Positions 13,401 through 36,111 of a DNA stretch of 64,000 nt are shown in pieces. A program made the translations under genes and the position numbers. How positions within the stretch are numbered: the first letter of the stretch is position 1; every line of letters begins with the position of its first letter. Origin of the DNA: Antedon mediterranea (taxonomy: Eukaryota > Echinodermata > Crinoidea > Comatulida > Antedonidae). The notes below the pieces were generated by a model. That model ran no database searches, was not told the DNA's origin, and saw only the letters and a program-made list of their open reading frames with translations. The stretch spans positions 26,648,001 through 26,712,000 of the forward strand of contig NC_092674.1 of assembly GCF_964355755.1 (NCBI RefSeq), written 5' to 3'.

Positions 13401-14899
13401 TTTTATTTATATTTTTGGGTTATGATAATGCGTTACATATGAAATTTTGAGTAAGTGGATCTGGTTAAATATTATAGTTTGTTGTATGTAGTTATCTAAG
13501 CAATTTCCAATGTTGAGATCTTGTTTTGCTATACTTTAATATATTCTTATTCTAGGTATGCTGTGATTCTAGCATTCGATGTCAAAGTTGAACGTGAGGC
13601 CCAAGAGATGGCCGACAAAGAGGGCATCAAAGTTTTCCAAGCGGACATTATCTACCATTTATTTGACAAATTCATGGCTCACCGAGCAGAAGAAAAGCGC
13701 AAAAAGCGTGAAGAGTTTAAACATGTTGCCGTCTTTCCATGCAAACTGCGAATACTTCCACAACATATATTTAACTCCAGAGACCCTATTGTAATGGGGG
13801 TGATTGTAGAGGCAGGTCAACTTAAGGTCGGGACTCCCATTTGTGTTCCAGCAAAAGAGGTGAACATTTGTTGATTAACTGTTAGGTTGAATTGTATAGT
13901 TGCTCACCAGTCTGAAAATCTAACCAACTTAGGCCTAGCAATAGATTGTTAACTTCATCTAGGCCAATCCCATATTGTAGGCTTACAATGATCAACGTTT
14001 CTCTATACCTTAACCACAAGACTCGGAATACAAATATTGAAAAAAAAAAGAGACCTGTTTGGCTGTTAATACTAATTCACATATTCAACATTTATTTCAT
14101 ATTTAGTTCACTCATCTTGGATTTGTAACAAGTTTAGAGGTGAATCACAAACAAGTGCAGGTGGTACCTACAGGTCAAGAGGTCTGTATAAAGATCGAAC
14201 CAGTACCTAGCGAGGCACCCAGGCTATATGGCCGTCATTTCACACATGAAGATGTCCTTGTTAGCAAAGTAAGCCCTGTGTCATTGTATATTTCTACGTA
14301 ATTTAAATTTAACGGAAAAGTGATATCTAATTATGATAAATGGCTCTTATACGTGTTCAGCTTTTTGTAAACATTTTGAGAATTTTGCCACACATGGTTG
14401 TTGTCAATCAACCTGTAGTGCGCACCGTTTATAACTGTTCTGCTCCACGTCCAAAGTTGGGAGCACTGCCTTTTTGAATGGCCTAGCTTCCCGGCCTAGC
14501 TTTCGTCAAAGATTCCCGATGGATAAATTGGATAAAACTTTTTTTTACCTGTGTTATAAAACTATGATAAATAATGAATGTTTTGTGTGTATTAAACCGT
14601 GAGAATACTTTATTTAAGAAAAGATTAAATGCTCTATTTAACTCCACCTTGTTAAATAGAGCATTCAATATTTCAACGCGTGCAATTTTCTCCCCATACA
14701 ACTCGTAAACATTCATCATATGTAAAATAGTAAACTGGTTTTCACATGTCTTTTTCTCAATAAAAATTAATCCATATATTTTTTTACACAGATTAGCAGG
14801 GAATCAATCGATGCGGTCAAGAATTATTTCCGTGAAGAAATGAATAAGCCTGATTGGCTAGTTATGATTGAGTTGAAAAAACTGTTTGAAATTTTATGA
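1481..14899 (+). CDS. EIF5B: Eukaryotic translation initiation factor 5B (eIF5B), complete
   Basis: Ribosome-dependent GTPase that joins the 60S subunit to the 48S complex. Exons: 1481-1536, 3996-4097, 4192-4344, 4713-4841, 4981-5038, 5314-5575, 5945-6055, 6206-6375, 6768-6951, 7207-7278, 7405-7545, 7879-8087, 8330-8437, 8568-8678, 9545-9754, 10047-10178, 10487-10669, 10827-10988, 11374-11505, 11901-12032, 12275-12351, 13556-13859, 14107-14268, 14792-14899. They sum to 3468 bases (1155 residues plus stop; human about 1220). Residues 1-549 are a Lys/Glu-rich, poorly conserved tail starting MGKSKKGK. The GTPase domain shows GHVDTGKT (573-580), DTPGH (637-641) and NKID (691-694, split by an intron), followed by the beta-barrel, alpha/beta and C-terminal domains, ending KLFEIL. 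All splice sites are GT-AG and in phase. The long introns 1, 14 and 21 hold a transposon and two minisatellites. Confidence 0.96.
1841..3824. mobile_element. 2-kb non-autonomous DNA transposon with long repeat-filled TIRs (hAT-like target duplication)
   Basis: Inserted in eIF5B intron 1. Inverted ends of about 145-150 bases (1841-1993 and 3675-3824) are nearly identical when one is reversed. Each end carries five copies of the motif GAAATCGGTCGCG or close variants, three near the tip and two after a spacer containing GGCGCGCC. An exact 8-bp direct repeat, GTAATAAA, flanks it at 1833-1840 and 3825-3832, the duplication size of hAT-type elements. The interior (about 1.7 kb) is AT-rich with no transposase-like reading frame, so the element depends on a transposase elsewhere. 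The superfamily is inferred from the duplication length alone. Confidence 0.85.
5050..5120 (+). repeat. tRNA-derived SINE head (probable)
   Basis: In eIF5B intron 5. Contains an A-box-like stretch (TGGCTTGGTGG) and about 50 bases later a perfect B box (GGTTCAAATCC). No folding tRNA can be drawn, so this is a tRNA-derived repeat, not a tRNA gene. Confidence 0.45.
5622..5751. mobile_element. MITE, AGCTCTGTC family, copy 1 (complete)
   Basis: Inverted termini starting AGCTCTGTCTACACT, flanked by TTA on both sides (5619-5621 and 5752-5754). Lies in eIF5B intron 6. The TWA target duplication suggests the PIF/Harbinger group. Confidence 0.82.
6438..6582. mobile_element. MITE, AGCTCTGTC family, copy 2 (right terminus degraded)
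   Basis: The left terminus AGCTCTGTCTACACTATC is intact and the internal GTGATGTGCCCA block is present. The right end stops at TTTTGTCAAACTA. In eIF5B intron 8. Confidence 0.72.
8740..9225. repeat. 21-bp minisatellite in eIF5B intron 14
   Basis: About 22 tandem copies of a 21-base unit resembling TGTTGGTATCTGTGTCAGTGC, with decayed copies on both sides (8691-8740 and 9225-9400). Because 21 is a multiple of 3, every frame is open and gives false repetitive proteins. Confidence 0.93.
10683..10790. mobile_element. MITE, AGCTCTGTC family, copy 3 (left end lost)
   Basis: The right terminus GTGTAGACAGAGCT and the internal CATATCACTACCATATTT block are present; the left terminus is missing. In eIF5B intron 17. 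Confidence 0.68.
11117..11195 (-). repeat. tRNA-derived SINE head or tRNA pseudogene
   Basis: On the minus strand an A-box match (TGGTCTAATGG) is followed by a B-box match (GTTCGAATCC). Acceptor and anticodon stems do not pair, so it is not a working tRNA. In eIF5B intron 18. Confidence 0.5.
12389..13365. repeat. 24-bp minisatellite in eIF5B intron 21
   Basis: About 40 tandem copies of a unit resembling ATGTGTAGACATGTAACC followed by a variable six-base tail (TTAGTC, TCAGGG, TTATGC and others). A 167-base block is duplicated almost exactly (about 12677-12843 and 12844-13010), a seven-unit higher-order repeat. It fills most of the intron between 12352 and 13555. Confidence 0.95.
14628..14665. 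repeat. Perfect 15-bp hairpin in eIF5B intron 23
   Basis: AATGCTCTATTTAAC at 14628-14642 is the exact reverse complement of 14651-14665, with an 8-base loop. It may be the core of a decayed palindromic MITE. Confidence 0.7.
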
Positions 14900-16743: not shown

Positions 16744-19479
16744 TTATCGAAACAAAAGTTCTGTTGCTATCAAAAATTCTCTTTCAAACACTTCTTCTGA
16801 AAATCGTTTAACCGATTCACGAGCATTTTCACGTATTTTTAATCTATCAGCTTTTTTCATTAGTAAGATAGTTGCCATGGCATCCGCATACTCGTCAACA
16901 TCAGTTGCTAGGAAACCAGTTGGTTGGCCGTTGTACCGGACAACGATGTCCTTCTTTGGTCCGCCTGAATTGTGAGCAAGTATGATTGTACCAGCTGCCA
17001 TACACTCCACAACACCTTGAAAAGAGATGAAGGTATTTTTATATTAAAAACAACACCATGATGTACAAAGAAGTTCTCAATTTAAAAGTTTATAAAGTCG
17101 ACTCTCCCAATACTGGATACCTTTGGGCTGACCAAATATGTCTGGTTTACCTGAAAGTCTGTTATTCGGAATAATTTTTAATGCTAAAAAGAAATTTGGG
17201 ACCTTTTGGACCCTGAAAAATTGCTGGTATTGAAAGTTTCGAGTTTTCAGAGAGTCCGGTATTGGGAGAGTTTCCATTTCATAAACTAGTATTCACCACC
17301 CAAGTGAGAACAGTATTCACTTAATTTTGATAGGTGTTACTCCACAATACCCCACACAGGTTAAAGGATTATCTTTATGCTCTCCAAATTTTAATTATTA
17401 TTTTATTTGTAGTTACAGTATATACATTGTATCAATTGAGCCACCATGGTAACATTTCTTGCTCCCTTGCTTGTTATCACCAATGCATACACATTGGCCT
17501 ATATTAGTGTTGATACTGTAAACATTCAAAAAATGTGTTATTTATGAATAAAAGTATTAAGATCCTGTACCTATTCCAAAATGTTCATTCCACATAGTAT
17601 GAAGACCAATAGTAGCCTCTGAGAGGTGTTTTTTAAGCTCATCGAAACTAACATTTAACTTGAATTCAACGTTGGCACGTATGTTAAACCGTTCGCATAA
17701 TTCACGAAGCTCATCAACCCGCTCCATATCCTCTCTGTTCCTGCAGCTTCCCACCAGTATCAAGCGCAGATTACGATACGGATCATCCGAATAATTCTTT
17801 AATAGTTTGTTAAATGCTCGGATTTGTAATTGATGGTCTTTTTCTGGTCTAAATTGCGCAACGGAAACGATGGTATGCTGATGCAACGATCCGTCGTGTA
17901 ATGGTAATTTAAGAAATCCTGACGTATCGCAAGGCGGATACACTATGCTGGTTTTTTGCGGGCATTTCCAAATATCTAAAATATGGTTTTCGGTCCATGA
18001 AGAATTAACCATTATGACTTCGTTACGCGCACCCATGATACCGTAGAGGTACGCAAAAAGACGATAATAAACCAGTTTGAAGCAGCTGAGCACAGGATTT
18101 CTTGCAATAAAACCGGGATTATTGTGAGCCTCTCTTCGTTCCGCAACTCTCGCCAGCATGTCCGTACTTATAGTTGGATAATGCACATACGACCCTGTGC
18201 GGCAATTACCAATGTACTTAAAAAGCGGGATGGTAAACGCATAACCCATCGTATCTATGTACAAATCTGGGGTGAATTTCTGCAAAGCTTCTAGCCCTAG
18301 GCCTACAGAGCCGAGACTCTGTCCCAGTAGCGTGAAGAAAGGGTACGTGCTGGCCTCTACTAGATGACGTCTCTTCAGAAACACAAATTCAACCGGTTTT
18401 TCAACTGTAATGTTAAATCGTTGTTTTGCTTTTAAGATGATCTCCTCACCCGTGACATTCTGATCGCCGGTGTAGACTACACAACGTACAAATGAGTACC
18501 TGAAAAAGAAAGAAAAAAGGTCTATCAGGCAGGAAATTCAAGGGGTTTTATTTTGCAATCAGACACCCAGATTTCACAAGCTTAACCATTCTTGACTCAT
18601 GGTCATTCTCAGATGTTTTTCAGCCAAGTGAGAAAACCTTTCAATAGGCAGTCACTTAAAATACTCTTGAATGAAATTTGAAATAATTATAGGAATGATG
18701 CCATAATTATTATTATTAAATAGTATTTATTATGTAGCTTATTAAATATTAGATTGTGTTTTTTAATGTTTTATAGAGTTTTTTTTTTACACAACTACAT
18801 GTTTGTCCCCTGTTTGAACAAAATTACGGAAAAAACTATTCATCAAGTAAATATTGTTTAATACTAAAGAAAACATACAAACCTCCTTTGCAATGCTTGT
18901 ATGGCGCACCATAGTACCCTCTCCCCTCCTCCGCCTGCGTTGCAATAAGGGTGGAAAAACCCTACAACAACTGGTTGCATTCCATTTTCCGTTTTTTCCC
19001 ATAGATGTGGTATTTTCTTGTGTTTATTACGTTGAATAGATGACTTGATGTACACAAATGAACATGATATTATGATGACAATAGGACTAATTATAAGCAA
19101 TGCAAGAAAAAGTAGATTCCAAAGTAACCTACAAAAAAAAGTTTAATTATTGATTTCAAAAAATCTGCACAATATAGCAATTGCACATACATTTTTTGCG
19201 GAATTGCAAATTATTGCGCAAAAATAGGTCTATCCTTGAGCAATTTATTTAAATGGTTTTAATTATTCCTAGGCCTAGATCCTATCTGCTACTGTGCCAG
19301 CACAGAAGCATTGCATTGCTTTCTGGCTGTAGCATTGCATTGCTGTCTGGCTGTAGCAAGCGCGAGGAAGTAGCTAGCTAGAGCCAGGCTTGCACAGAAA
19401 CAAGTGGTTTCTGCGGTACTAAAATGTATGCCTACCTTTGTAAAATTAGAATAATCTGGATGAATGTTGATGCAACCAT
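16744..19479 (-). CDS. ALG11: GDP-Man:Man3GlcNAc2-PP-dolichol alpha-1,2-mannosyltransferase, complete
   Basis: Adds the fourth and fifth mannoses to the dolichol-linked N-glycan precursor on the cytosolic face of the ER. Exons (minus): 19436-19479, 18883-19128, 17571-18499, 16744-17015; 1491 bases, 496 residues plus stop, close to human ALG11 (about 492). The ATG at 19479 was chosen because its 44-base exon joins in phase to the next exon. The N-terminus is one long hydrophobic signal anchor (about residues 8-40). Then come [47 protein letters not shown] and [14 protein letters not shown]. The GT4 C-terminal site [15 protein letters not shown] carries the two glutamates. All these match ALG11 as remembered. 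It diverges from the copper ATPase gene; intron 3 holds a MITE. Confidence 0.96.
17097..17270. mobile_element. MITE with ACTCTCCCAATAC termini
   Basis: In ALG11 intron 3. GACTCTCCCAATACTGGA near 17099 is mirrored by TCCGGTATTGGGAGAGTT near 17252-17269. The element is about 170 bases with no coding capacity. Target duplication is not clear. Confidence 0.7.
19273..19370. repeat. Short tandem duplication in ALG11 intron 1
   Basis: Two copies of a roughly 25-base unit (GCATTGCATTGCT plus TCTGGCTGTA). Nothing else is recognisable here. Confidence 0.6.
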
Positions 19480-20526
19480 TTTAATTATTTTCTTCATTTC
19501 CAGCAGTTTCAACTGTTTAGTAAGTCTAGGCCTACTACCGGCTTGGCGTACAACATACAGCGACAAATTGCACAATATTAAAAATAAACAGAGCAAAAGT
19601 GCGACTTAAAAACCAATACTATCCTATCTTCTTCCATACAAACGTCTTATTTCGGACTCTTAGATTAGCACACTTGGGCTTTCCTATCAACAACAGTACC
19701 ACAGAAGAGGTGAAAGTTCACATGTTCTCGGTAAACAATTCAGAATTTGTGCGACGACGAGTAAATGGTGTCACTTTTCGTCGACTGTTTTCACGAAATT
19801 TGAATAAACATGTAATCAGAAAAAGGCATCATAAGTTTAAATATTAGTTATATTATTTGGTTTCACAGTAAATCTACTTTTTAAAGTGGTCTATACCGGG
19901 TAAGTAATGTCAAATTCTACCTTAATTAAGAACTGCTTTACTGACTGGTTGTAATTGAATTGCACACAGTCAGGTAAAAACGATTCCGTAGGCGGCCTAC
20001 TTTATATAAATTCTTGGCAATTGAATTGACCACAGGAGAGACATAGGCCTCAGACAGCTCAGGAAGTGAAAAATGACAAGCTTCACACATAGGCCTAGGG
20101 CCTATTAAACCTACATGTTTTGTCTAGACAAGTATCTAGGCAATTTTTGAAGTGTAATACATTTTTAGCCTGTGTGTGTATTTATTTTAATTTATTTTTA
20201 CAGTATATAATTAAAATTGTTATGAATGAATATTATAGATGGGCCTATCGAATAAAAAGAAAATTCTGTGCGCGCTCAAAAACACAAGCATGCGTAGAAT
20301 GATCTTCCTACTTGTTGTAGCGTGTTCAACAAACATTGAGACGCAATTTTATTTATTGCATTGGAACCAAAGCAATTGTGAAATGCCCTTAACTAATGTC
20401 CAATATACTGTACATTTTCTTTCACACTGCCCCATTTATCCTAAGTAAATACACTTAACTTTATACTGAATCGAAATCGTGATAACATCCCTTTTTTTCA
20501 GTTTTTAAAAAAGAATTTGTTGCCAG
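19480..20526. promoter_or_regulatory. Head-to-head intergenic region between ALG11 and ATP7
   Basis: 1047 bases between the two start codons, with no other gene. It must hold both promoters if first exons are as modelled. I cannot identify individual transcription-factor sites with confidence. Confidence 0.5.
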
Positions 20527-23500
20527 ATGGAGGAAGTATGTGTTATAGCAATTGAGGGAATGACCTGTGAATCTTGTGTGCGCAACATTCAACAATTCAT
20601 AGGTGATGACCTTGGGGTCAACAATATCAAGGTTAGTTAAAGATGTACATATGTTCCCCAAAAACATGAACAATGAAGATTCATAAATCAGATTTTGAAT
20701 AGGCTATTTTGTAGTTTTAATGAAGTTCACTTCACTTATATAGGCCTAATAAGGCATGAACTGTAGTTTTGTTTTGTTTCCAATTTTTGGTCAAAGTGAA
20801 TAACTATTATGGAACATTGATATGGCATACAGTACTGTATCCAACAACTAAATTAGAATTTTTTTTCAAAGGGACAATATCTTTAAACATTTGAACCATT
20901 GGAAACATAATATAAATAAATGATGATTAAATATAATTGTATAGAAATATATTGCATATTAATAATAATAATAATATATTTTTAAATAATGACAAATATA
21001 ATTAATAACTACTGTAATGATTATCATTATAACCAAAACCTAATAATTATCAATCATTCTATAACTAATAATTATCATTTATAATTAAAACCTATTTATT
21101 TTCATACAGTTTTATTATCAAAACAGGTTTAATATTCAATAATTATCATTTACAAATTTATATATTTTATTTCATCAAAAAAATGATGTTTATGTTTTTT
21201 TTTCTTAACTAATAATTTATAATTATTACTGTGTCAGATAGTCTTGTCATGAACATTTGAAATATGCAAACTAAATTAATTTTCAGTTTTATCGATTCCC
21301 TGGTTATTATACCAATACATTACAACAACAAAAATAAGTACAGTAATTGTGTTTTATGTTCAATTTTAAAATTCAATACTAAAGCAGCTTTTCAGCATTA
21401 TCAACTTCCTGGTATTATACTTATTATTATATAATAATATATTTATATTATTATTACACCAAATACATTTTTAAAAGTATTAGTTATGTTAAATTGTTTT
21501 GTCTCTATTCTGCTTTAGTCTGTATCAAATGTTGCACTGTTAATTGATTTGCAAGTCTGTGAAAAGACTAACCAGTACGTTATACTCATTATACATGCAG
21601 ACAACCTGCATACATTATTCTGATATTATATGAAATACACCAAGAACAAAATTAACCTTTGTACCAGTATATTATTTTCATTGATTTTACAACTATTTAA
21701 TCAACCTCTGTGTCAATTAATTTTATATTTGCAGGTATCTTTGGAGAAAAATGAAGCTGTTATCAAGTTTAATTCGTTGGTGACTACAACTCAGCAATTA
21801 TGTGATAAGATCGAAGATATGGGATTTGGAGCATCATTGAAAGATAACGGCACACAGAAAAAGACTGTGACGGTTTACATAAATGGCATGCGATCAACTT
21901 CATGCGCACAGTCTATCGAGAAAAAGTTATCAACTCTAGAGGGAGTTGATCAGATATCGATATCGTTTGAACGAGGACAAGGTGTAATTGCTTTTGTGGA
22001 GGGATCGACCAATCATGAACTGTTACTGGCTGCCATTCAGGAAATGGGATTTGGGGCCTCATTAAGCGAGACTGATAAACCATTAATTAATGAAGTTGTA
22101 ATACATGTGGATGGCATGACGTGTAACTCATGTGTGAAATCCATTGAAGGGAATATATCCACATTGAACGGTGTTAACAATATTACGGTCTCGCTTGAGA
22201 ATAAATCCGCAAAGATACAGTATAATCCGCAAAAAATGAATCCAAACACTTTGAAACAAGCGATTGAAGATATGGGATTTGTGAGCAGCTTTGACGAGTT
22301 AGACTCGGAATTACGAGATGTTGTAATCTCGGTTGGGGGAATGACGTGCCAGTCTTGTGTGCGTTCAATCCAGGATCATATTTCGACGCTGAAAGGAGTC
22401 GTTGAAATTGAAGTGTCTTTAGCGAAAGAGAAAGCTTTCGTAAAGTACGACCCTGTGTTAACTCAACCAGAAACAGTTCGGGAAGCGATAGAAGATATGG
22501 GGTTTGATGCGGAATTACCGAATCACAAAATGGTAATGATTGTGCTCTGTGTTGAAGGTATGACATGCCAATCGTGCGTAAAAAGCATTGAAGGGAAGAT
22601 GAAAGAGGAAGCTGGTATTGAAGAAATTACAGTTTCACTCGAAAATAAAAATGCTTCAATATCGTATAATCCTGACGTGACCACGTCAGAAAAACTGCGT
22701 CAAGGAATTGACGAAATGGGTTTCGACTGCTTTTTACCGGTAAACCTTGATACCACGGACCAAATTATGGAAAATACACAAACTACAATTGTATCCATTG
22801 AGGGTATGACATGTAATTCATGCGTTTGTTCGATCGAGGGAACTATTTCCGACAAGCCTGGTGTTAAGGCGATAAAAGTTTCACTCGCAGAGAAAAAAGC
22901 AGACATTGAGTTTTACCCGTCAAAAACTTCGCCAACTAATCTACGGGATGCCATTGATGATATGGGATTTGACGCTTCTCTTGTGGGTAAGTTGGTTCAT
23001 TTATTTACTCAGTAATCGTAAAATTGTTTTTATGTGCAATAGTTACTTTAAATTTATCTTTTTTTTTTAAAAATCATTTGTTCTTAAAAAGTAATAGTTA
23101 TTACCCGGAGAGAAAATATATACAGGATATATTTTTTTATTTTTTGCTGATATTATAAACTAAGTTAAATTGTAGATCTATTTCTACTACTGTACTCTAC
23201 TGCATTTTTATTTGTTTAAATTTGTCATTTATTCAACATCTACAGTACTGTGTCATGCACATAATATATCATGAAATCTACAGCTGACGTAAATGCCATA
23301 TTGTTACTGAGTTGAATATGACACAGTATATATAAATAATTCAGTATTAGGATTATTATTTATTATACTTAATATACCAGTAAGACTGGTGATTTTCTGC
23401 TCAAATCAGCCCAGCCAAATATACCTACAGTACTGTAGATTACCTATTTATATAAATATATGTTTTGCCATTTTTAATTATAATTTCTCAATGATATAAT

Positions 23501-26500
23501 GAAACATTTCAAACTATCGTTAGATCAGAAGTATTTCTAGGCAAGGGAAGAGTAAATTACATTGTAAATTCACTGTTCCTTAGCCAGACTACTGTACTGT
23601 ACTTTATTTATAATTATTATAAGCAGCAGTACAAGTCTGTACCTACAGGTACAGTATTATTGTTGTTAATCATGGATTGCTAGAATAACACAGTTTCTAA
23701 AGCTGCTGTTACTGTGCTTACCGTACCATAAACTTTATTCAATTGTATTAGTTCTTGAGATCCATGACGTGTACATACATCACGGCCACCAGGACGTCTA
23801 AACCCTTTCAATTACTGTATGCAGGCCAATTACAATTTACTTTTCTCTTATAGAAATGTTTGACTCTTTAAAATCATTCACCTAACAATTTATTAGATTC
23901 AGAATACTGTATTAAGATTAGTGTATAATACAGTACATTTCAAATGATCAACTCAATAGACAGTTTACTATTTTTCCAGTCCTATACTTGAAAGTTTTTA
24001 GTGTAAATTGCATGTACAGTACTGTCTACTAAAGGATGTCAGGTAGGAAGAGTCTTAAGCCTGGTTTCCATAAAATCTCTACACGACAGAGCGTAGCGAT
24101 TCTATGGAAACGCTAGAATTTATCGGGGATCTAGTACGCGAGTGATAAATATTCTTTGGTACGCGTATTACGATTCATCGCCGACAAAATCGGCAAAGTT
24201 GAACATGGTTGAACTTTGCCGATTTGACTGCGATGAATCGGGGAGCCTTCCCGATTGCGTCGGCGACATCTGCGCGTGTAGCGATTTTAATGGAAACGCT
24301 GTAGCGATTTTAATGGAAACCAGGCTTTAACCATGTACACTACTTACAGTGAATGTTAGAAAGAGGTGATCTACAGCATTTTATAAGGCCTTTAATTAAA
24401 TCCATTTTTATTAATTTGTTTATTTGTGTTATTTAATTTTCTCAAGTATATTGAGGGCCTCTTCAAGTCAGCTATACTGCTGCAGTAGAGTTACCCTTGT
24501 AAAACAAAGTTGAATAAATAAAGTAATTAATAAACTATATATCACAGGAAAATGATTGCAAATGTTACAATGCATGCTGTGTGTATCAGTAGCTAAATTC
24601 TTAATTGAGACACAAATAAAATATTAGCAAAAAGCCAACATCAAAACTATAAAGTATTAACCAGCCAGAAATAAATTTCAAAGCTAATACAGTACTGTAA
24701 ACCCTATAGATTTAATATAGTACATTATTATTGAAACCATTAAAAATTGTTGTTTATTTTTGTTTGTATCCGCACTGCGCTTGTGTCTATTAAGATTAGA
24801 TAGTAGTGCTATAATCCCAATATTATAAAGATATCCGTACTTGAAAGATGGATTGATAATTAATAGTGGACGGAAGTGGAAGCAAAATAGACCTTGGACC
24901 TACTGTAAGCCCTAGCTGGTAATCCAACAATAAAATTGTTTTAACAATAAAAAATAGTTTTACTTTAAAAAATGTTGTTACTAATTAATTATTCAAAAAT
25001 AAATATATCTCGTTTTTACTTTTTAAACACATGTTGAATTTGTCATACTTTAAAATCAACATTATTTTTTAAGAGAATACGTTTATTATACAGTAGACAC
25101 GTTTTTCTATCAAAATCTCATTTTAACACATTTAAAGCACATTTTTTATATTCTATGACATTCTCAACGCCATAACATTTTCATTATGTCCAGCCGCCAG
25201 CTTATGTTGAATTTTAAAATCGTAATTTGCTTTCCAAATATTGCTCTTTGATATTAAACACGACTCCCTTGAGACGTACCATATGTGAGTTTGTTTAATA
25301 TGCTTTTAAAACACTCTCGAAAATGATTTTATCTCGTTATTGTGTAAGTTAAAAGTATGTGTTCCGCATGGAATACCGTATTTATAGTAGGCCTACTGTA
25401 CAGTATTACTACTACTGCATAAAGTGTAAACAGAATTATATAGTACCAGCTGAATACAGTATTAATTTCAATGGTTCATACAAAAAGTGAGAAGTAATTT
25501 TCATGCGAAATAAATGCTTTTCATGCGAAATAAATGCATTTCCCCCATACAGTACAGTAGAACCTGTCTTTTCAGACATCCCTACTCAGGGACGCTTTTT
25601 AGTGAAACTAGTCAACTAACTAAGTGCCTATGTGTCCTAAAAGTGTCAAATTGGGGGTCCGTCTACTAGTAATGCAGTACAAACCTGTTTTCCGCCATCA
25701 AAAAAAAACAAAGAATGGATATTTGCCCATTAGTGAATAGAAGACATTGTTGACTATTCCAATTCAAATATTCATTCTACAGTTTAAACAACTTTAATCT
25801 CCTCACTGTAGTTTAAACTAGTACACTCACTCTTTGTCTACCAACAACATTTTATATTAAATTTATTGCAGGGGAAGATCTAGGTGGAATGCTTTGGGTG
25901 TGAGTTTCCCCTTTTTGACACCTATAATAAATTATGAACCACTTTTTGATAAACTATATTTTACACTTACAGACTAATTTTGCGTATAAAGAGACTTTTA
26001 ATAAGCTTGTACAGTACACTATATAATTGTTTTACTTTGTGCAATATTTGTTGTATTTGAATGTTTTTAGAAGCAACTGATCCTTTGAGTTATAAAGTAG
26101 TTAATTTTTTTGTTTTACAGTAGTTGCCCTTCACCATTGTGCTTTGTTTCTGTTACTGTATTATTTTAATGTCTATTGGTCGAATAAATAAATGAAATGA
26201 AAAAAAGACTATACAGTATTATCATTAAAAAGATCCACTATATAATTTAATAGTAGTAGTTTTTCTACACTTCCTATAACTTAATATTGTGTTTTCATTA
26301 TCCGAAGCATCAGACATTGGAAACGGATCAGGTTTGTTTGCCAATTTCTTGCCTGCCATTTCAGTTTATTACGTAATAACCTACCGTTAAGTGTTCTTAT
26401 TAAACTTTAACTACAATAGGCCACTGTACACATTTATATGTACAAGGGGTGTTAAAGAGGTGGTATAGGTTGAACATCTTTGAAGCTCTACACTATCAAA

Positions 26501-29500
26501 CTGTATGTGACAAAACAAATATGATGTGCCCATATATGGACAAGATGATGTCATACTGTATAACTGCTGTACCATACAGTATTTGGTCACATTACACTTT
26601 TTTGTTAAACTAGATACCTCCCCCAACATTTAAAATCCTGTCACATATGGACACGATGATGTCATATAAGTACTGTACCATATTTGGTCACATCAAACTT
26701 TTTTGTCAAACTAAATCCCTCCCACCAACATTTAAAAACCTGCCATAATTATGTGTTATAGATATTGTATATTGGGAAATCCTACTTGAACAACTTTCCT
26801 GCAACCTCCGACCTCAGCCCCTTTATCCTGTTTTGCATCTAACTATCCATATTGGCCGTCCTTTTCTGCATCTTGATTCCCCTATCTATATCTCTTGCAT
26901 GCACAGTATTTACTCTAAAAAAAAACCATCGTTGTACTATTAATATATTTCATGTCAATTTAACTACACTTTAATGTTAGTTATCATTATAAATGTAATA
27001 TGCCTGCAATAATTTAAAATGTAAAACTTTAAATGTTTCAATTTGAGCATCGGAGGCACTCAGGGTTTTTGGTGGTTTGTGTCAGGCACATAAGAGCAAG
27101 GTAGCATCTTTGCATCATGTTTATCTAATACTAACAACATGTTCTGCATTTTTCTTTTTTTAGATGCCACTGTGAACCCAGCATACAAAGAAAGTAAAGG
27201 GAATCGTAGTTTAAAAAGTATTCTAAAACGACCAAACCACCGCAAGCGGTTCCTTGAGGATTTGGAGCTTGGAGAAAGCGGCGTTAAAAAATGTCAATTG
27301 CAGGTGACCGGAATGACATGTGCTTCTTGCGTCGCTATCATAGAACGGAACCTGATAAAAGAGACAGGTAGGTAGAGTAGATAACTATTTCATAAAAAAT
27401 AGATGGAGAGATAATAGTTGGTTAAAATGAGTATACAAAAGAATACATTTAAACAATCATGCATGCATTGATTTTTCAAAATTGCGACAAGTCCAATACA
27501 AAACTGTCATGACAAGCAAGTTATTTACTAGTTTACAATTCATGAACTCTCTCATTTATCGAAACCAGATAATAATGATTTTAGAGTCAAATACGGTTTC
27601 TAAACATTTAAGCCTGAAAATAAAATAGTACCATACCATTTTTTTACCATCTTAATTACATTTGTTTTCTCCTTTTTATTTCAGGCATACACTCTGTGTC
27701 TGTGTCACTTATGGCTCAGAAGGCTGAGGTTGGCTACGACAGTGATTTGGTCACATGCAACAAGATTGCTAACTATATTAGTGACATGGGATTTGGCGCC
27801 AAGGTTTTGAAGGAGGACGATCAGACAACAGGGGATCAATATGTTGAAATACAGGTATGTTTTATTATTTTTCCGTACAATAAAGATAAAAGTTACTGCA
27901 CTTAAAATCGGTAAATTTAGCCTAAATATGAGAGTTCTGTAATTAAAAATAAATATTTATGAAGTTAAAACAAATTTAAAAATTCAAAATAACATTTATT
28001 TACTTATTAAAACAATTTAAACAACAATAGTGGAATAAACTAAACTACCAAAAGATATCATTAACAATCAAGGCTACACCTTCAGGACCCAACAAAGGTC
28101 CTCTAATAGGGGTGTCTCTTGAATAGTGGTATGCCATTTGTTTCAGGTAAAAGTTACCCCTTTATAGGGGTCAGCCATTGGTGTTAAAACATATTTTCGT
28201 TTATTTTATGAATATATGTCTCCTGAATATTAAGTTCTCTGTTTCTGATATTTATCATTATTTATTTAGATAACAGGAATGACTTGCGCGTCTTGCGTAT
28301 ATCTCATCGAGTCTACACTTAAAAAGAAGCGAGGAATTCTCTCGGCATCTGTTACATTAGCAACTTGTAGAGGGCGCTTTGAGTATGACCCAGAGCTGGT
28401 TGGTCCAAGAGATGTCATGGAATATGTTAGGGTAAGTGTTTTTATTATTGTTATTTGCTTATTTAATACCTGTTTGCTTATATTTTATGTCATGTTTGGC
28501 ACGCCATAGTCAGTTGTCTTTAGTAATAAAGTACTGAATTAGCATCTCTCACAAAATCGTGTTTTATTTATTAATTTGACACATCATTACATTTGAATTC
28601 AAATTTTGTACTTGATAACACAACCCATTTTCACATTATTTTGTAGGACGTTGGCTTTGGAGCAAGCCTGGCAACCAATGATACCAAAAGTAAAATGGCG
28701 ATAATAGACCACAAAGAAGATATACGAAGGTATCTCAATTGTTTAAAATGTTTAAATTCAAACTAGCAGATATCTCAGACGTAGCATATATTATATCATG
28801 TCATCTATAAGACATTAGAATTTCCTTTAAAGATTGATTGCATCACTAATTGGGAATACCAAGCAATTAAAACATTCTTATACATAAAGATATAGACAAC
28901 AGGGTTTCATAATTTAACAAATTAAATGTATTTACAATGTAAGTTCACCTCTCAATAATTATTATCATTTTAGACTAATAATAATAATGTATTTGTATTT
29001 TCTAATATACTGTACCTAAAGCTCTGTCTACACTATCAACCTTCATGTGAAAAAAATGTGAGGGGCCCATGGACTTGATGATGTCATATCACTACCATAT
29101 TTAGTCATATCACTACCATATTTAGGCACATCACACTTTTTTATTTAATAGTGTAGACAGAGCTTAAATTTGCCTTATTGTTGATTGGATTCAATTCAAT
29201 TCAATTCAAAACCTCAGTAACTTTTTCCTAGCAGATACATTAGGAATACAAAGTCTTTATTCGTTGTAATTATTTTTATTTTTTTTTACAGGTGGAGAAA
29301 TTCCTTTCTATTGTGTTTGTTGTTTGGTATACCTGTTATTATAATTCTTATACATGATATCAAGCATGGTGCCAATCAAAAACTCATCATTCCAGGATTG
29401 TCTTATGAAAACTTAATGTTGTTCTTACTATGTACACCAGTACAGGTAGGTTCTACAAGCCTGTAAACAAGATTTTTAGAAGGGGTTCTTTTTTTATGCA

Positions 29501-32500
29501 AAACAGGGAAAGTGCGAGTGTAGGAGGTTACCCTGGTACATCACAGCCACTGATCATAACTAGGCCTTCTGGGAGACCAGTGTTTGACTGAAGAGGTATC
29601 CCATTATAAATAAATAATAAAAATATTTATAATTTAATACAAAAAAATAGACTAAACAGGGATGAATGAATGAAAAAAATTGTTTTAGGCCTAGCCTAAC
29701 TAGAATTTGCCTGCCGGATTGGTAGAATTTTCTAGGCCTATTTACTAGCACAACCTAGACCAACAAAGTTCTATGAATTTGACTGTACCCAAACTTATGC
29801 TCTGTCTACTGCACTATCAAACTAGTTTGACAAAAAAAATGTAATGTGCCCAAATATGGTAGTAATTTACCCAAATATGGTAGAGATATGACATCATACA
29901 GTTTGATAGTGTAGACAGAGCTTTATAATGGATCTAAATGTCAGTTTAATTATCATACATTTTTTAATTTCAGCTGTTTGGAGGTCGGTATTTCTACGTA
30001 CAGGCGTACAAAGCCTTAAAACACGGGGCAGCTAACATGGACGTTCTCATCGTTCTGGCTACAACCATTGCTTATTTATATTCCATTTTTATCATTATTA
30101 TTGCTGTAATGCAAGGGGCAAGTACTAGCCCGATGACTTTCTTTGATGAACCACCGATGCTACTTGTGTTTGTCTGTTTGGGAAGGTGGTTGGAGCACAT
30201 GGCAAAGGTATATTTTATTTGTCTAAATATGGTAGCTATATGCCCAAATATGGTAGCGATATGCTCAAATATAATATGACATCATCATGTTCATATATGT
30301 GCACATTACATTTTTCTGTCACATAAAGTTTTATAGTGTAGACAGAGCTTTTAGTCCTAACTTGTTTTACCTGGTCAATACATCAATCAATCAATCAATC
30401 AAAGTAACATTTATTGCTCTTATAATTTCATAGTAAATGAAAATTAACAGTAAATATAATTAAAATAAGATGGACAAAATTCCAAAAAAGTAAAGCTTGT
30501 ATAAGGCAGCCCATCAGTGTATGCATAGGCTGGTCTGCCTAACTTTGCCAGCCCTTGCCTTCACTGTTAACAGAACATCAAAAATACTCCTTACTACAAC
30601 CAGTTTGACCTTTGAAATTCTTTGAATAGTAATGGAGCATTTTAGATTTTGGTATTGGCTATTGATACAATGATACATAGTAATATAGTTCTTTATTATT
30701 TATATTTTTTTTTTCAGGGTAAAACATCTGAAGCTCTGACAAAACTTATGTCTCTACAAGCCACTGAAGCCACTTTAATTAAATACAATGATAACGGTGA
30801 TATTGTGGAAGAGGTAGAAATGGACGTAGATCTTCTACATAAAGGGGACGTTGTCAAGGTGTTCCCTGGAGGGAAGATCCCGATTGATGGCACAGTTCTG
30901 GAGGGCAAGTCAATGGTTGATGAGTCTCTCATTACTGGTGAATCCATGCCTGTGATAAAGATGGCAGGTGAGAAGGGGGTTGTTGGTGCAGCTGATGTCA
31001 TTCAAACTCCCAAACATAAAATAGCTAGGGTTTTTTTGTACATATACACTTGTTGTTTATAAACTTAGTTGTGAGGTTTTGAATTTGAGACTTTTTGTTT
31101 TGGGCACAACATTGTGTTTTGAATTACTTCAAGTTAAATAATACATTAAATCCAGGGCTGACATTTGTTTCAGTTTAAGTGTGAAAAACAGTGGCTTTAT
31201 CTTTGGAATGGACCTTGTCATCTAAAGCCTTGTCTACACTATCAAACTAATTTGATCTGCCCATATATGGACATGATGATGTCATATCACAACCATATTT
31301 GGCCATATCAGTACCACATTTGGGTACATCACACTTTTTTTGTTAAATTAGTTTGATAGTGTAGACAGAGCTGAAGATTTATATAAAACAAATATGAACA
31401 AGTATAGGTTATTTTGAAAAATGATCCAAGCACGATCCTGGCCTTCAATTTCCAATCATTAAAAAAAATGTTTCTTTCCAGGGCACACTGTAATAGGAGG
31501 AACTATCAACCAGAATGGAACGCTATTTGTGAAAGCGACCCACGTAGGTGCTGATACAACCCTTTCACATATTGTGAAGTTGGTTGAGGAAGCACAGACT
31601 TCAAAGGTAGATTTTATTTATTTTATTATTTTGTAAATTAACTTGTATTAAACTAATATTATAAACAAAAACATTTTAAATGAAAAAAAAATTTAGTGTT
31701 ATACTAATTATGTTATAAACAAATGCTAAAAAAAAGGATTTTAAATGAGAGAAAAAATATTCTTAATATTTCAAATTAACATTCACCTGTGTTTTAAAAT
31801 ATTTTTCATATTTTTCATTTTCCTAGGCTCCAATCCAGAAGGTTGCTGACAAAGTAGCTGGTTATTTTGTGCCTGGCATAGTCAGTTTATCTCTGCTTGT
31901 ACTTGTCCTCCACATAGCGACTGGATATTCAAATCTAGAAGTAGCACATGCTTCCTACCAAGCTTCGGTACTAGGAATTTACTTTTTTGGACATTTTATG
32001 AAAGTTGTTTTATATTTAGGTTTTTTTCTACAATAATAATAATATTAATAATATGATTAAATTAATATTCATTTCAGAATGAAACAATGGGACGAAATGA
32101 GATGATTTTACAGTATTCTTTCCAATGTGCCATTGCAGTGCTTTGTATAGCCTGCCCATGTGCACTTGGCCTGGCCACCCCTACAGCCGTAATGGTTGGA
32201 ACCGGTGTTGGTGCCACTTTAGGAATTCTAATAAAAGGTGGCCAACCTCTCGAGATGGCGCACAAAGTAAAGGTTGTTGTGTTTGACAAGACGGGAACAA
32301 TAACACAGGGTGCACCACGTGTCATTCGTGTGGCGGTCTTTGAAAATCCTGTGGTGAAATCATTGAATAAACTGTTGGTGATTGTGGGATCAGCCGAGTC
32401 TAGCAGTGAGCATCCGATTGGCTCAGCCATTGTTAAGTACACAAAAGAGGTAGGTCAAATTTTCTTTAAAAGTGTAAACACAAACTAAATAGGCAGTTTT

Positions 32501-35500
32501 CACACAAGCATGTAAACGTTAACTGTAACGCTCTTTCCCAACATGCAACGCGCAAGCTATTCCATGATTTGTTTTAATACGAGCGGCGTATGTTGCATGT
32601 GTGACACATGCAGTGCGTTCTACACTTTCAGACAAAGTACACAACTGTTTGCAACTATGTTGTTATGCAAATGAGTAGAATGTGCGAAAACTCCCAATTA
32701 TTATTAATTTTAAACTTTATAGCCTAAACAGTATCATATTTATTGAATTATGGATTTATTTATGTATTTCATAAAGCAGAATTACATTTTTTTTGTTAAA
32801 ATGTAAAGCAAATGTAAAATAATGGGTTATATTAATTATTTATTACTGGAAATATTTTGACAGAAATTAAAAACTGAAGTGCTAGCAACGTGTAGTGATT
32901 TTGAAGCGGTGCCCGGATGTGGTTTAAAATGTACAGTTAGTGAAATTGAAGATCTTCTACTAAATTGTGAGGAAGATGAAGAACAAGAGAACATGCACAA
33001 AATGAATGGAAATGGCAGTCTCAACGGAATGCCAATTATTACGACATCATCTGTCGGTAAGTTGATGCTGATACTATATACTGTATAGTAAACACTTAAA
33101 ATTTTGTCAATATATTACAAACAACATTATTCTTTAAACAGGCACAACTCAAACGCCAACCAAGCCTGGTGTGTACACCGTTGTTATTGGCAACAGAGAA
33201 TGGATGCAACGACATTGTTACGACATCCCATACGAAGCTGATGAAGAAATGAAAGATCATGAAAAGAAAGGACAAACTGCTGTTTTGGTAGCAGTCAATG
33301 GTAAGCGTTATATTAAATATTAAACATATTTGACTGGTCTCTTTTGAGATCTAGTTCCTCGGACCCATCCAGTGGCGTAAGAGCTATGAGTGCTCGCTGG
33401 CTAAACCCAGGAGACCCAGTGCTTAGGGCCAGAGCAGGAGCAATCCAATGCAACTCCCCTGCGTTGGAGGACCCCTTAGTAGTGTTAACCAGGGGCCTTT
33501 GCCCACTGTGTTACGCCACTGGACCTATCACTGTTTCTGTCCGAGCTTTTCTTTTGCAAGCAGTTTGGGAGTTCATAATTTGCCTATTGTAGCACTGTTA
33601 ATAAAAAGCTGACCTTTAACATTTCAGGAATTGTACTTGGTATGATAGTCGTGGCAGATTCACTGAAACCGGAGGCTGCGCTGGCAGTGTACACGTTAAA
33701 GAAAAGGGGCCTACGCGTTGTACTACTAACAGGTGATAACCGCAAAACAGCCGAAGCGATCGCAGGTCAGGTTGGAATAGCTGAGGTGTACGCACAGGTG
33801 TTGCCACAACACAAAGTTGCAAAGGTCAAAGAACTACAGGCTAAAGGTCAACTTGTTGCCATGGTCGGTGACGGGGTGAATGATTCGCCGGCGTTGGCGC
33901 AGTCAGATGTCGGGATTGCCATAGGTACTGGTACGGATGTTGCAGTTGAAGCAGCTGATATTGTACTTATACAGGTGGGTTAATATGCAAATTAAATATT
34001 AAAATTACATTGTATGTTGATCATTATCAAAATATGTACGGTAATAATTGTTATTGTATATCAATATTTTATGAATCAATTAATTTTTAATCATAGTACT
34101 ATTCATTGAGAATGTTTTTATTGTAATTTTAAATTTTTTATTCAATTTTATTATATTATTTTTTTTTCTCTTTCAGAATAATCTTCTTGATGTAGTTGGA
34201 GCATTACATTTATCCAGAAAAACAGTTCGAAGAATTCATCTAAATTTTGGATTTGCAATTATATATAACCTTATAGGAATCCCAATTGCTGGAGGTACTA
34301 TCATAATAATAATATAATAATTTAGTTTGCCGCTCTGCAACCTATCCGTTTGAATTTGCGAAAAAATGGGTCACAAAATCCATGAAATTTTACACTGATC
34401 TGCAATGGTCAAAAATTGATTTAGTTGATTATTCAACTGTTATTTATTTATTTTTTTATTCAATGTTCTTTCCTCTTTCGTGGGATAACCCATGTTATTA
34501 TAATACAATGTACGATTCTGAACAGCACAATAATAATAATCTCAACAGCATCTTACAGCTTAAATACTGTATAACTCAAACAAGTAAGTGAGTGGTCAAG
34601 CGGTTATAACAGTGGAACCATTAGTACGTAGCCATAACATCGGCAAGGGTTCGAGGTTCACTCTCTCCATTCTAGTGGTAGAACAAGTCTTCTTGGATAA
34701 GGACTATAAACCGTAGGTCCAGTGTACACAACTAGCTCATATGTGCACTTTAAAGAACCTACAGTAGCGCATCTTTCGAGACTAGTACATCACAGCCACT
34801 AATTATAACTTGGCCCTCTGGGAGACAAGTCTTTGACTAAAGAGGTCGCCAAGTATAAATAAAATATTTAAATTCAGCCGCTATAGGAATATAGAATATA
34901 AAACTACTAGTGATATTATTGTGATTTTTATGATTTTCCATCAGGTTTATTCATGCCATGGGGCATAGCTCTGAAGCCTTGGATGGCATCAGCTGCCATG
35001 GCGTTCTCTAGTGTTTCTGTTGTCACATCCTCATTGTTGCTAAAATTGTAAGTCTACCATTCATTCATATTTTGCATCAGCAGCAGACACCTTGACTTTA
35101 TTTATCCTTTTTTTAATCGTCCTATTCATTATCATTTATCACTTTTTAAGGCTCGCCCAACAGAAGATGTTTTTCTTCATCTTCCCTAGCATCTGCCTTC
35201 AAACTCTGACCTTATGTCAATATTTTATTGCATTGTGTTTTATTATCTTTTATGTCAGAGTCTGTTATGAAACTTGAAAACTCAGAATACAGTAGAACTC
35301 CTCTTTTAATGTAAAACAAACAAGGGGATGATAATGTTTTAACACTGCCTACAATCCCTATTTTAAAGGGCACCTCTTTATTAAGGGGACACTTTGTTCG
35401 TTTCTGAAGGTGTCCCCTGCATAAAAGTTCTAATGTAGCTTTTTTGTACCTCCATAGTCATCACTAAAACAATACTCCATAATATAAAAATAGAGTGCAT

Positions 35501-36111
35501 ACTGTAATTTAACTGCACCCACTTTATTTATAACCGACACCATTGAACACATTTGCGCCTTTTCTAACGTTTGTAGTACATAAGCTGTTATCATTTTATA
35601 TCAATTACGTCTTGTTCTCTGATAGTTAGATTCCTGGAATAGTTTACCTGGCTTTTTAGTTTTATTTAATTGTGGCTAGACACTTTGAATGTCTATGTAA
35701 TCAGTCTTGTTTTGCTAAAAGCCAGAGTAGGCAAATCCAGAGCTTATTAAAATAGGTTTTGTAGGAAAAATAGTGTTTGAATTATGTATTTTATTATATA
35801 TGATTAATGACATCTGACCACACCTGTGGTCTTCATCTGACCTGGTGATATGCTGACCTCTGTTGTCTAGTGAAAGACAGTAAACAATATCATTGATTTG
35901 TTATTTTAGGTACAAGAAACCGGATTACTCAAGTCTGGAAAAGCCAAATTGCCACCAATTGAAGAATAGATCCCATCGAATATCCATTGACGTCAGCGAA
36001 GAGGAGGATGTTACCATTTTTAATAAACCAAAATCATGGAAGAAGTTTACTTTAAAGACATCGAAAGATTCTCTGAAAATGTCGTTGTTAGGAGGAGAAC
36101 ATGAAGATTGA
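20527..36111 (+). CDS. ATP7: Copper-transporting P1B-type ATPase (ATP7A/ATP7B type), complete, eight HMA domains
   Basis: Pumps Cu(I) into the secretory pathway or out of the cell. Exons: 20527-20631, 21735-22986, 27164-27367, 27685-27854, 28270-28431, 28647-28729, 29292-29445, 29974-30207, 30718-30967, 31482-31606, 31827-31967, 32078-32449, 32864-33056, 33142-33300, 33628-33974, 34177-34294, 34945-35047, 35910-36111; 4374 bases, 1457 residues plus stop. Eight heavy-metal domains are visible: MTCESC, a degenerate MRSTSC, MTCNSC, MTCQSC, MTCQSC, MTCNSC, then MTCASC twice (vertebrate ATP7 has six). The core shows TGES (861-864), CPC (986-988), phospho-Asp D1030 in DKTGT, SEHP (1070-1073) and GDGVNDSP (1282-1289). 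The tail has SLLGG, comparable to the dileucine trafficking signal. An in-frame TAA lies just upstream of the ATG. AATAAA occurs at 36292. Orthology to ATP7A versus ATP7B cannot be decided. Confidence 0.96.
24058..24326. mobile_element. 269-bp MITE with AGCCTGGTTTCCAT termini and nested hairpin
   Basis: In ATP7 intron 2. Inverted termini AGCCTGGTTTCCAT are flanked by TTA at 24055-24057 and 24327-24329, again a TWA-type duplication. The centre (about 24168-24240) folds into a long hairpin with arms containing AATCGGCAAAGTT and GATTCATCGC. Confidence 0.85.
26484..26612. mobile_element. MITE, AGCTCTGTC family, copy 5 (degraded)
   Basis: Left terminus reduced to AGCTCTACACTATCAAACT; the internal ATGATGTGCCCATATATGG block and the right-side CACTTTTTTGTTAAACTAG are present. 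Confidence 0.65.
26640..26715. mobile_element. MITE, AGCTCTGTC family, copy 6 (right half only)
   Basis: Repeats the internal and right part of copy 5 (ATATGGACACGATGATGTCA, then TTTTTTGTCAAACTA) directly after it, suggesting local duplication. Confidence 0.6.
29020..29164. mobile_element. MITE, AGCTCTGTC family, copy 7 (complete)
   Basis: Complete inverted termini flanked by TAA at 29017-29019 and 29165-29167. In ATP7 intron 6. The block CATATCACTACCATATTT is duplicated inside. Confidence 0.85.
29515..29625 (+). repeat. SINE 3' fragment
   Basis: Shares the block TACATCACAGCCACT, then CTGGGAGAC and GACTGAAGAGGT, and an A-rich TAAATAA tail with the fuller copy at 34583-34870. In ATP7 intron 7. 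Confidence 0.65.
29798..29922. mobile_element. MITE, AGCTCTGTC family, copy 8 (complete)
   Basis: Both termini are present, flanked by TTA at 29795-29797 and 29923-29925. In ATP7 intron 7, just upstream of exon 8. Confidence 0.83.
30215..30350. mobile_element. MITE, AGCTCTGTC family, copy 9 (left end lost)
   Basis: The right terminus GTGTAGACAGAGCT is intact; the left part has tandem AAATATGGTAGC blocks instead of a terminus. Begins within about ten bases of the exon 8 donor of ATP7. Confidence 0.68.
30379..30620 (-). repeat. Non-LTR retroelement 3' fragment, (GATT)n tail, minus orientation
   Basis: Read on the minus strand it ends AATAAATGTTACTTTGATT followed by GATT repeats (30379-30400), the microsatellite-like tail of CR1/L2-type elements. 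No coding part remains. In ATP7 intron 8. Confidence 0.5.
31226..31372. mobile_element. MITE, AGCTCTGTC family, copy 10
   Basis: Termini AGCCTTGTCTACACTATC and GATAGTGTAGACAGAGCT. Preceded by TAA but the right-hand duplication has decayed. In ATP7 intron 9. Confidence 0.8.
32492..32694. mobile_element. Possible MITE with GGCAGTTTTCACACA terminus
   Basis: In ATP7 intron 12. GGCAGTTTTCACACA on the left matches the reverse of TGTGCGAAAACTCCC on the right at 13 of 15 positions. The interior is less AT-rich than the intron. Target duplication is not evident. Confidence 0.5.
33370..33521. mobile_element. 152-bp hAT-type MITE (CAGTGGCGTAA termini)
   Basis: In ATP7 intron 14. Perfect inverted termini CAGTGGCGTAA, flanked by a near-exact 8-bp duplication (GACCCATC at 33362-33369, GACCTATC at 33522-33529). 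CAGTGGCG is a typical hAT end. Its GC content is visibly higher than the surrounding intron. Confidence 0.82.
34583..34870 (+). repeat. tRNA-derived SINE (about 285 bp)
   Basis: In ATP7 intron 16. The head shows an exact A box (TGGTCAAGCGG, as in type II Leu/Ser tRNAs) and a B-box-like GGGTTCGAGGTTC. A body of about 200 bases and a TAAATAAA tail follow. The body is shared with 29515-29625. Confidence 0.78.

Follow-up and report, generated by a model that had tools for sequence, protein, structure and literature searches.

A divergent ALG11-ATP7 gene pair in Antedon mediterranea, probably kept since the common ancestor of sea urchins and vertebrates

Genes at the locus

Two genes lie head to head in the window, that is, the whole stretch of 64,000 nucleotides of A. 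mediterranea DNA analysed here (Table 1). ALG11 is encoded on the minus strand, and joining its four exons gives a model of 496 amino acids that is open from start to stop, with in-frame joins and GT/AG borders. The short first exon was predicted solely from reading frame and splice signals. The ALG11_N domain scored 240.4 bits (cut-off 29.8, E 2.6e-71), and the C-terminal group-1 glycosyltransferase domain (PF00534) scored 48.8 bits on the exon 3 open reading frame (ORF) and 26.6 on that of exon 4 (cut-off 26.4). ALG11_N marks a single locus in the assembly, with two exon matches, both inside the window. No relative was found among solved structures with the exon 3 ORF, nor in prokaryote and viral contig collections with a single ALG11 protein as query.

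The ATP7 model, on the plus strand, comprises 18 exons (20527-36111) and 1457 amino acids, and is open from its start codon to a TGA at 36109-36111. Residues 1-710 contain eight HMA stretches, the second of which is missing the first Cys of CxxC. The complete set of P1B-type motifs, including the membrane CPC, is present, judged by a motif list that we take to define copper ATPases of this type. The best matches among solved structures were 7si3, a P-type Cu(+) transporter and presumably Xenopus ATP7B (1327 bits), and 7xuk, Copper-transporting ATPase 2, which is human ATP7B (1306 bits); the next solved copper ATPase, HMA4, reached 760 bits.

The ALG11 start codon at 19479 and the ATP7 start codon at 20527 are separated by 1047 bp. 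A preliminary description had reported divergence across a gap of this size within 16744-36111; the in-frame joined models reproduce the gap to the base, and the interval is the span covered by the two coding regions. The orientation and the spacing of about 1 kb, measured between start codons, are those of an ancient conserved bidirectional pair. At the other end of ALG11, the 3′ end of an EIF5B-like gene faces the ALG11 3′ end, tail to tail.

Table 1. Positions of predicted features in the window
Feature	Position	Strand	Evidence and remarks
EIF5B-like gene, part	9461..14301	+	Pfam GTP_EFTU, IF-2, GTP_EFTU_D4; named by eye, borders approximate
ALG11 exon 4	16744..17015	-	Stop TAA 16744-16746; Glycos_transf_1 4.9e-06 on its ORF; joined model
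ALG11 exon 3	17571..18499	-	Pfam ALG11_N 2.6e-71, Glycos_transf_1 7.4e-13 on its ORF; joined model
ALG11 exon 2	18883..19128	-	Pfam ALG11_N 1.8e-14 on its ORF; joined model
ALG11 exon 1, predicted	19436..19479	-	44 bp, start codon 19477-19479; splice donor AAAG|GTAGGC, frame continues into exon 2
Gap between start codons, candidate bidirectional promoter	19480..20526	.	1047 bp; joined models, CpG observed/expected
ATP7 exon 1, predicted start codon 20527, first half of HMA 1	20527..20631	+	Joined model
ATP7 exon 2, remainder of HMA 1 and HMA 2-6	21735..22986	+	Pfam HMA 2.7e-78 on its ORF
ATP7 exons 3-6, HMA 7 and HMA 8	27164-27367, 27685-27854, 28270-28431, 28647-28729	+	Joined model
ATP7 exons 7-18, encoding the membrane part and the catalytic core	29292..36111	+	Joined model; solved animal ATP7 chains 7si3 (1327 bits) and 7xuk (1306 bits)

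The interval between the start codons

The observed/expected CpG ratio is 0.81 in the gap, 0.30 in ALG11 introns, 0.47 in ATP7 introns, 1.03 in ALG11 exons and 0.77 in ATP7 exons. Among 571 overlapping windows of the same length cut from the joined introns, 67 reach the gap level, a modest enrichment. Ten motif classes were counted there and none is conspicuous; the lowest shuffle fractions are 0.088 for metal-response cores and 0.094 for TATA. The metal-response core TGCRCNC occurs 13 times in the window (21.6 expected), once in ATP7 exon 1 and twice in the gap, where 0.51 are expected and where 8.8% of 500 Markov shuffles reach the observed count; this excess is suggestive at most. Directly 5′ of the ATP7 ATG are AG-ending stretches that would permit a 5′-UTR intron, so the spacing of transcription starts may differ from 1047 bp.

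A perfect palindrome at the centre of the gap (TTTATATAAA, 20001-20010) was dropped as a signal, as the window holds six such palindromes (1.17 expected). Four families of short direct repeats and an inverted pair, in or beside the gap, were uninformative. No tRNA was found in the window, and Rfam at gathering thresholds gave no match there.

Chromosomal neighbourhood

Five genes with human counterparts near the copper pumps were sought: INTS6, RNASEH2B, VPS36 and SUGT1, which we take to lie in human 13q14.3 within about 1.1 Mb of ATP7B-ALG11, and PGK. All five are on the contig that carries the pair (C5), which makes up 9.0% of the assembly; random placement would give this result with a probability of ∼6e-6. 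INTS6 lies 26.1 Mb from the pair, VPS36 22.4 Mb, RNASEH2B 4.45 Mb and SUGT1 0.66 Mb. The RNASEH2B matches are weak (E 2.5e-4 and 9.5e-4), VPS36 was detected via EAP30, which matches contig C1 as well, and SUGT1 was identified by a Pfam SGS match alone. The GLUE family of VPS36 had no match in the assembly, and a solved-structure search with the SUGT1 candidate found nothing. Since these four genes are scattered over 0.7-26 Mb here versus ∼1.1 Mb in human, the order of these neighbours has been broadly scrambled while the pair has held at 1 kb. Chance reassembly of the pair is unlikely because chromosome-scale linkage is conserved.

PGK is encoded on the strand opposite to ATP7, 54 kb further downstream, and about three gene-like stretches without firm names intervene. 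A table row in PMC12936413 gives the human order COX7B, ATP7A, PGAM4, PGK1, TAF9B; in this Xq21.1 segment PGK is near a copper pump, as it is here, although the distance, strand and intervening stretches described above set the A. mediterranea arrangement apart. Because PGK lies near the pair and human PGK1 flanks ATP7A, a single locus here combines neighbours of both human paralogues, ALG11 of ATP7B and PGK1 of ATP7A.

Age of the pair

Two microRNAs of sea urchins are present in the genome, miR-2010 as an exact match in a hairpin of -50.6 kcal/mol and miR-2011 with one mismatch in a hairpin of -38.7 kcal/mol; the mature sequences match those in a table of PMC4669494. With both of them in good hairpins, the genome reads as ambulacrarian, and probably as that of an echinoderm. 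The protostome marker mir-2 gave no Rfam match among the 60 of 131,623 candidates that were scored, which is uninformative, and a COX1 search of the assembly for mitochondrial DNA gave no match.

Passages of PMC8027023 describe a ∼1 kb bidirectional promoter between human ATP7B and ALG11, and the statement is repeated in a passage of PMC8774088. They bear out the head-to-head human arrangement that the preliminary description had put forward, and they are the source of the comparison made here. The same two genes are thus divergent and ∼1 kb apart in both lineages; promoter function is described for human, and for A. mediterranea it is inferred. Because human has the same pair and this genome looks ambulacrarian, the pair dates to at least the deuterostome ancestor, as had been proposed beforehand, unless it was formed twice, and it has probably been kept since the common ancestor of sea urchins and vertebrates. 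The tail-to-tail EIF5B-like gene is a feature of the A. mediterranea locus; human ALG11 presumably has no such neighbour.

Literature searches for ALG11 and ATP7B as a head-to-head pair returned nothing, and the excerpts returned for a bidirectional promoter of the two concerned human ATP7B only. The titles and abstract openings examined from the synteny literature make no mention of an ALG11-ATP7 pair, an excerpt of a mouse defensin paper mentions Atp7b and Alg11 together, and the main text of PMC3815023 names neither gene. According to excerpts of an amphioxus study, ancestral bidirectional promoters form a class, with 372 putatively ancestral cases (PMC6292497). These are likewise divergent pairs of conserved genes kept for a very long time, but they are a chordate set, and A. 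mediterranea is outside the chordates. ALG11-ATP7 would be a further case of this known class of ancient bidirectional pairs, and its human half is already published.

Persistence of the pair

We are moderately confident in a reading in which ALG11 and ATP7 were inherited as a divergent pair from the deuterostome ancestor and the ∼1 kb gap serves as a bidirectional promoter for both genes. By analogy with human, the gap is most likely one promoter region; a break inside it would strip a needed secretory-pathway gene of its promoter, and breaks would thus be selected against. The preliminary description had suggested a shared promoter or a chromatin constraint, and in A. mediterranea both are candidate causes. 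Vertebrate genome duplications would then have copied an ALG11-ATP7-PGK block, of which the ATP7B copy retained ALG11 and the ATP7A copy retained PGK1. The modest CpG enrichment, the lack of a standout motif, the room for a 5′-UTR intron before ATP7, the chance of neutral survival given below, the proximity of PGK and the position of the second ATP7 gene in the tree all count against this reading.

An ancestral pair could also have persisted passively, the 1-kb gap being a small target for breakpoints that needs no regulatory sharing, and we regard this as possible but doubtful. Under simple breakage models with assumed inputs, in which 80-98% of adjacencies with gaps of 10-14 kb are broken, a 1047-bp gap remains unbroken with a probability of 0.66-0.89. 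Motifs in the gap give weak signals, and retention is not limited to a promoter-sharing pair, because PGK has stayed near although it has no promoter in common with the pair. Against luck stand the description of the human interval as a bidirectional promoter and the similar spacing in both lineages. Passive retention would suffice, and a shared promoter, with selection preserving the pair, is the reason for persistence that we favour. If sharing of the promoter goes back as far as the pair itself, the Wilson disease gene would have had its regulatory region tied to a glycosylation gene for more than half a billion years, and sequence from echinoderms could help to tell ancient core elements from those specific to mammals.

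A second ATP7 gene

A second ATP7-like gene is found on contig C3, with no ALG11 beside it. In a tree of the ATP7 core, built from five taxa with one distant outgroup and about 490 sites, this copy rather than the ALG11-linked one is nearer vertebrate ATP7B, weakly (UFBoot 78). The AU test excludes the two A. mediterranea copies as sisters (p 0.034), which the KH (0.087) and SH (0.099) tests do not, and a grouping of the linked copy with ATP7B is retained (AU p 0.256). ALG11 has one locus and ATP7 two copies, and this five-taxon tree leaves both copies as candidates for the vertebrate orthologue; position favours the linked one.

The tree hints at an old duplication of ATP7. In one such scenario, which would not conflict with an ancestral pair, ATP7 had already become two genes when chordates and ambulacrarians split, one of them beside ALG11; both were kept here, and the ATP7 at the vertebrate ALG11 site derives from the other or was partly overwritten by it. 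The existence of the C3 gene, its grouping with ATP7B and the AU result on the two copies speak for this scenario; the KH and SH results, the small tree, the retained alternative and the position of the linked copy speak against it, and we consider it improbable. In a fuller reconstruction, which we put forward as unlikely though conceivable, the ALG11-ATP7-PGK block would be near-ancestral and would have been split by the vertebrate duplications into ATP7B-ALG11 and ATP7A-PGK1, the free copy being lost or its sequence replacing the linked one. Independent origins of the adjacency in vertebrates and here are very improbable: the sole hint is the C3 copy's place in the tree, by which strict orthology of the linked copies may not hold, and against such origins stand the five human neighbours on the contig of the pair and the nearby PGK, which mirrors human ATP7A-PGK1.

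According to the review PMC3308323, animals outside the chordates possess just one copper ATPase; a second ATP7 gene in an apparently non-chordate genome runs counter to this. The locus with ALG11, ATP7 and PGK supports the derivation of ATP7A and ATP7B from one chromosomal segment.

The ALG11-ATP7 gene pair

Head-to-head ALG11 and ATP7 genes had been proposed in the preliminary description, and gene models confirm this arrangement, with 1047 bp between the two start codons. Both models form uninterrupted reading frames from start to stop (see table). Pfam detects ALG11_N or the group-1 glycosyltransferase domain in the ORFs of ALG11 exons 2-4, and exon 1 is a prediction based on splice signals. 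The ATP7 model contains all of CPC, TGES, DKTGT, SEHP and GDGVNDSP, and has one weak donor, in exon 11 (TCG/GTACTA). Its N-terminal region (20527-28729) carries eight HMA stretches, the second of which, judged by eye, no longer has the leading cysteine of its CxxC motif (GMRSTSC). A solved-structure search with ATP7 ranked 7si3, which we take to be Xenopus ATP7B, first (1327 bits), followed by human ATP7B 7xuk (1306) and HMA4 (760).

Features located in the window, on its contig (C5), on another contig of the same assembly (C3) and in L014, a separate stretch adjoining the left edge of the window; plain numbers are window positions
Feature	Location	Strand	Remarks
ALG11, 4 exons	19436-19479, 18883-19128, 17571-18499, 16744-17015	minus	in-frame join, GT/AG borders, 496 aa
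ATP7, 18 exons	20527-36111	plus	joined model, 1457 aa
Second ATP7-like gene	C3:36718700-36729430	minus	core matches 36718700-36721572, 51-67% identity
PGK	C5:26737840-26740234	minus (opposite to ATP7)	53.7 kb past ATP7 stop
INTS6	C5 0.56 Mb		Integrator subunit 6 top solved-structure match
VPS36	C5 4.24 Mb		EAP30 match; VPS36 top solved-structure match
RNASEH2B	C5 22.2 Mb		weak, E 2.5e-4 and 9.5e-4
SUGT1	C5 27.3 Mb		profile match; no match in solved-structure search
Gene-like ORFs	38765-42621	minus	one cysteine-rich, one death-domain-like by eye
Non-LTR-like element	43408-46489	plus	reverse transcriptase in two ORFs
Minisatellite-like arrays	8612-9453, 12315-13378		several frames open (from ORF lists)
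TMEM144-like pieces	603-848, L014:6716-7150	minus	window piece just under cut-off
miR-2010 precursor	C5:3045834-3045855		strong hairpin
miR-2011 precursor	C3:28281254-28281275		strong hairpin

Age of the pair and its chromosomal setting

The human ATP7B-ALG11 order given in the preliminary description proves correct: passages of PMC8027023, restated in PMC8774088, describe a bidirectional promoter of ~1 kb common to both genes. The pair is therefore present in both the ambulacrarian and the chordate branch of the deuterostomes and is very likely ancestral. Mouse Atp7b and Alg11 are mentioned jointly, without orientation, in a passage of PMC2807441. Work on amphioxus has already described 372 putatively ancestral bidirectional promoters (PMC6292497), and ALG11-ATP7 thus adds a new and well-dated case to an established class. 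The most useful additions beside the pair are the ALG11-ATP7-PGK locus and a second ATP7 gene.

A single PGK gene accounts for the seven matches in the assembly (8/8 candidates scored). It was the one gene sought from the ATP7A side, where a table in PMC12936413 gives the human Xq21.1 row as ATRX, MAGT1, COX7B, ATP7A, PGAM4, PGK1, TAF9B. PGK thus lies near a copper ATPase in Antedon as in human, here 54 kb downstream, so that a neighbour of ATP7B (ALG11) and a neighbour of ATP7A (PGK1) flank one ATP7. The vertebrate genome duplications would have duplicated an ALG11-ATP7-PGK block, with a different partner lost from each copy, and the layout here is what such a history would lead one to expect.

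Four further genes, INTS6, VPS36, RNASEH2B and SUGT1, which we take to flank ATP7B in human 13q14.3, were sought together with PGK in the assembly (354.4 Mb, 18 contigs), in which the window occupies C5:26648001-26712000, and all five were located on C5 (31.9 Mb, 9.0% of the assembly). The probability of this under random placement is about 6e-6, and the chromosome is therefore conserved as a linkage group. The GLUE family gave no match in the search for VPS36, and EAP30 has an additional match on contig C1, presumably SNF8. The distances to the pair are 0.66 Mb for SUGT1, 4.45 Mb for RNASEH2B, 22.4 Mb for VPS36 and 26.1 Mb for INTS6, so the surrounding gene order has been scrambled, while the pair itself was kept at 1 kb.

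The gap as a candidate promoter

By analogy with the human pair, the gap (19480-20526) is likely a promoter common to both genes in Antedon. At 0.81, the CpG observed/expected ratio of the gap exceeds that of the introns of ALG11 (0.30) and ATP7 (0.47), but coding exons come close to the gap value (1.03 in ALG11, 0.77 in ATP7), and a ratio of 0.81 is reached by 67 of 571 overlapping windows cut from introns to the gap's length. None of ten motif classes counted in the gap was convincingly in excess over shuffles. The human ATP7B core promoter lies within 130 bp of its ATG, according to a passage of PMC8027023. Just 5' of the Antedon ATP7 ATG, the motifs tttttttcag and ttgccag (directly before ATG) could mark the end of an intron in the 5' UTR, in which case the two genes may begin transcription nearer each other than the start codons imply.

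Passive retention, in which the genes stayed together without selection because the gap is small, would also account for the pair, without a shared promoter. Small gaps persist passively in a breakage estimate with assumed inputs, and PGK, which needs no common promoter, likewise stayed close; selection may therefore have maintained the arrangement but need not have done so.

A second ATP7 gene

The first exon of the C3 copy lies near 36729.4 kb (by eye), and its ORFs contain four HMA domains (one of five pieces under cut-off). ALG11_N matched nothing outside C5 in the assembly, and nothing resembling ALG11 stands in the ORF lists for the 13 kb that precede the C3 copy. Core identity is 62.5% between the C5 and C3 copies, 62.2% between C5 and human ATP7B, and 64.2% between C3 and human ATP7B. 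In the best core tree the C3 copy joins vertebrate ATP7B (SH-aLRT 77.3, UFBoot 78). This is weak evidence, the tree being built from five sequences with a distant outgroup and with a C3 core joined by hand. A sister topology of C5 and C3 is excluded by the AU test (p 0.034) and retained by KH (0.087) and SH (0.099); C5 with ATP7B is also retained (AU 0.256). These comparisons hint weakly that the two copies may stem from an old duplication. The tree cautions against treating the linked C5 gene as the strict sequence orthologue, although the position of this gene favours that view. A passage of PMC3308323 describes the copper ATPase as single in non-chordates and gives six HMA domains for vertebrates and seven for amphioxus; in contrast, the Antedon genome has two such genes, one with eight HMA domains.

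Other features

Between ATP7 and PGK lie the non-LTR-like element, a DUF229-like piece scoring under the family's cut-off, and a coiled-coil gene recognised by eye. The five minus-strand ORFs tested at 38765-42621 matched no Pfam family; past 46.5 kb, the window was covered by the ORF list only. Minisatellite-like arrays lie near or inside the EIF5B-like gene, and TMEM144-like pieces flank the left edge of the window.

Mature miR-2010 and miR-2011 are printed with sea-urchin names in a table of a sea cucumber paper (PMC4669494). In the assembly, miR-2010 has a single exact match (hairpin -50.6 kcal/mol) and sea-urchin miR-2011 a single match with one mismatch, located in the 3' arm of its hairpin (-38.7 kcal/mol); reversed-pattern controls gave 0 matches each. 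The two matches point to an ambulacrarian, probably echinoderm, genome. To our knowledge, both microRNAs are restricted to ambulacrarians.
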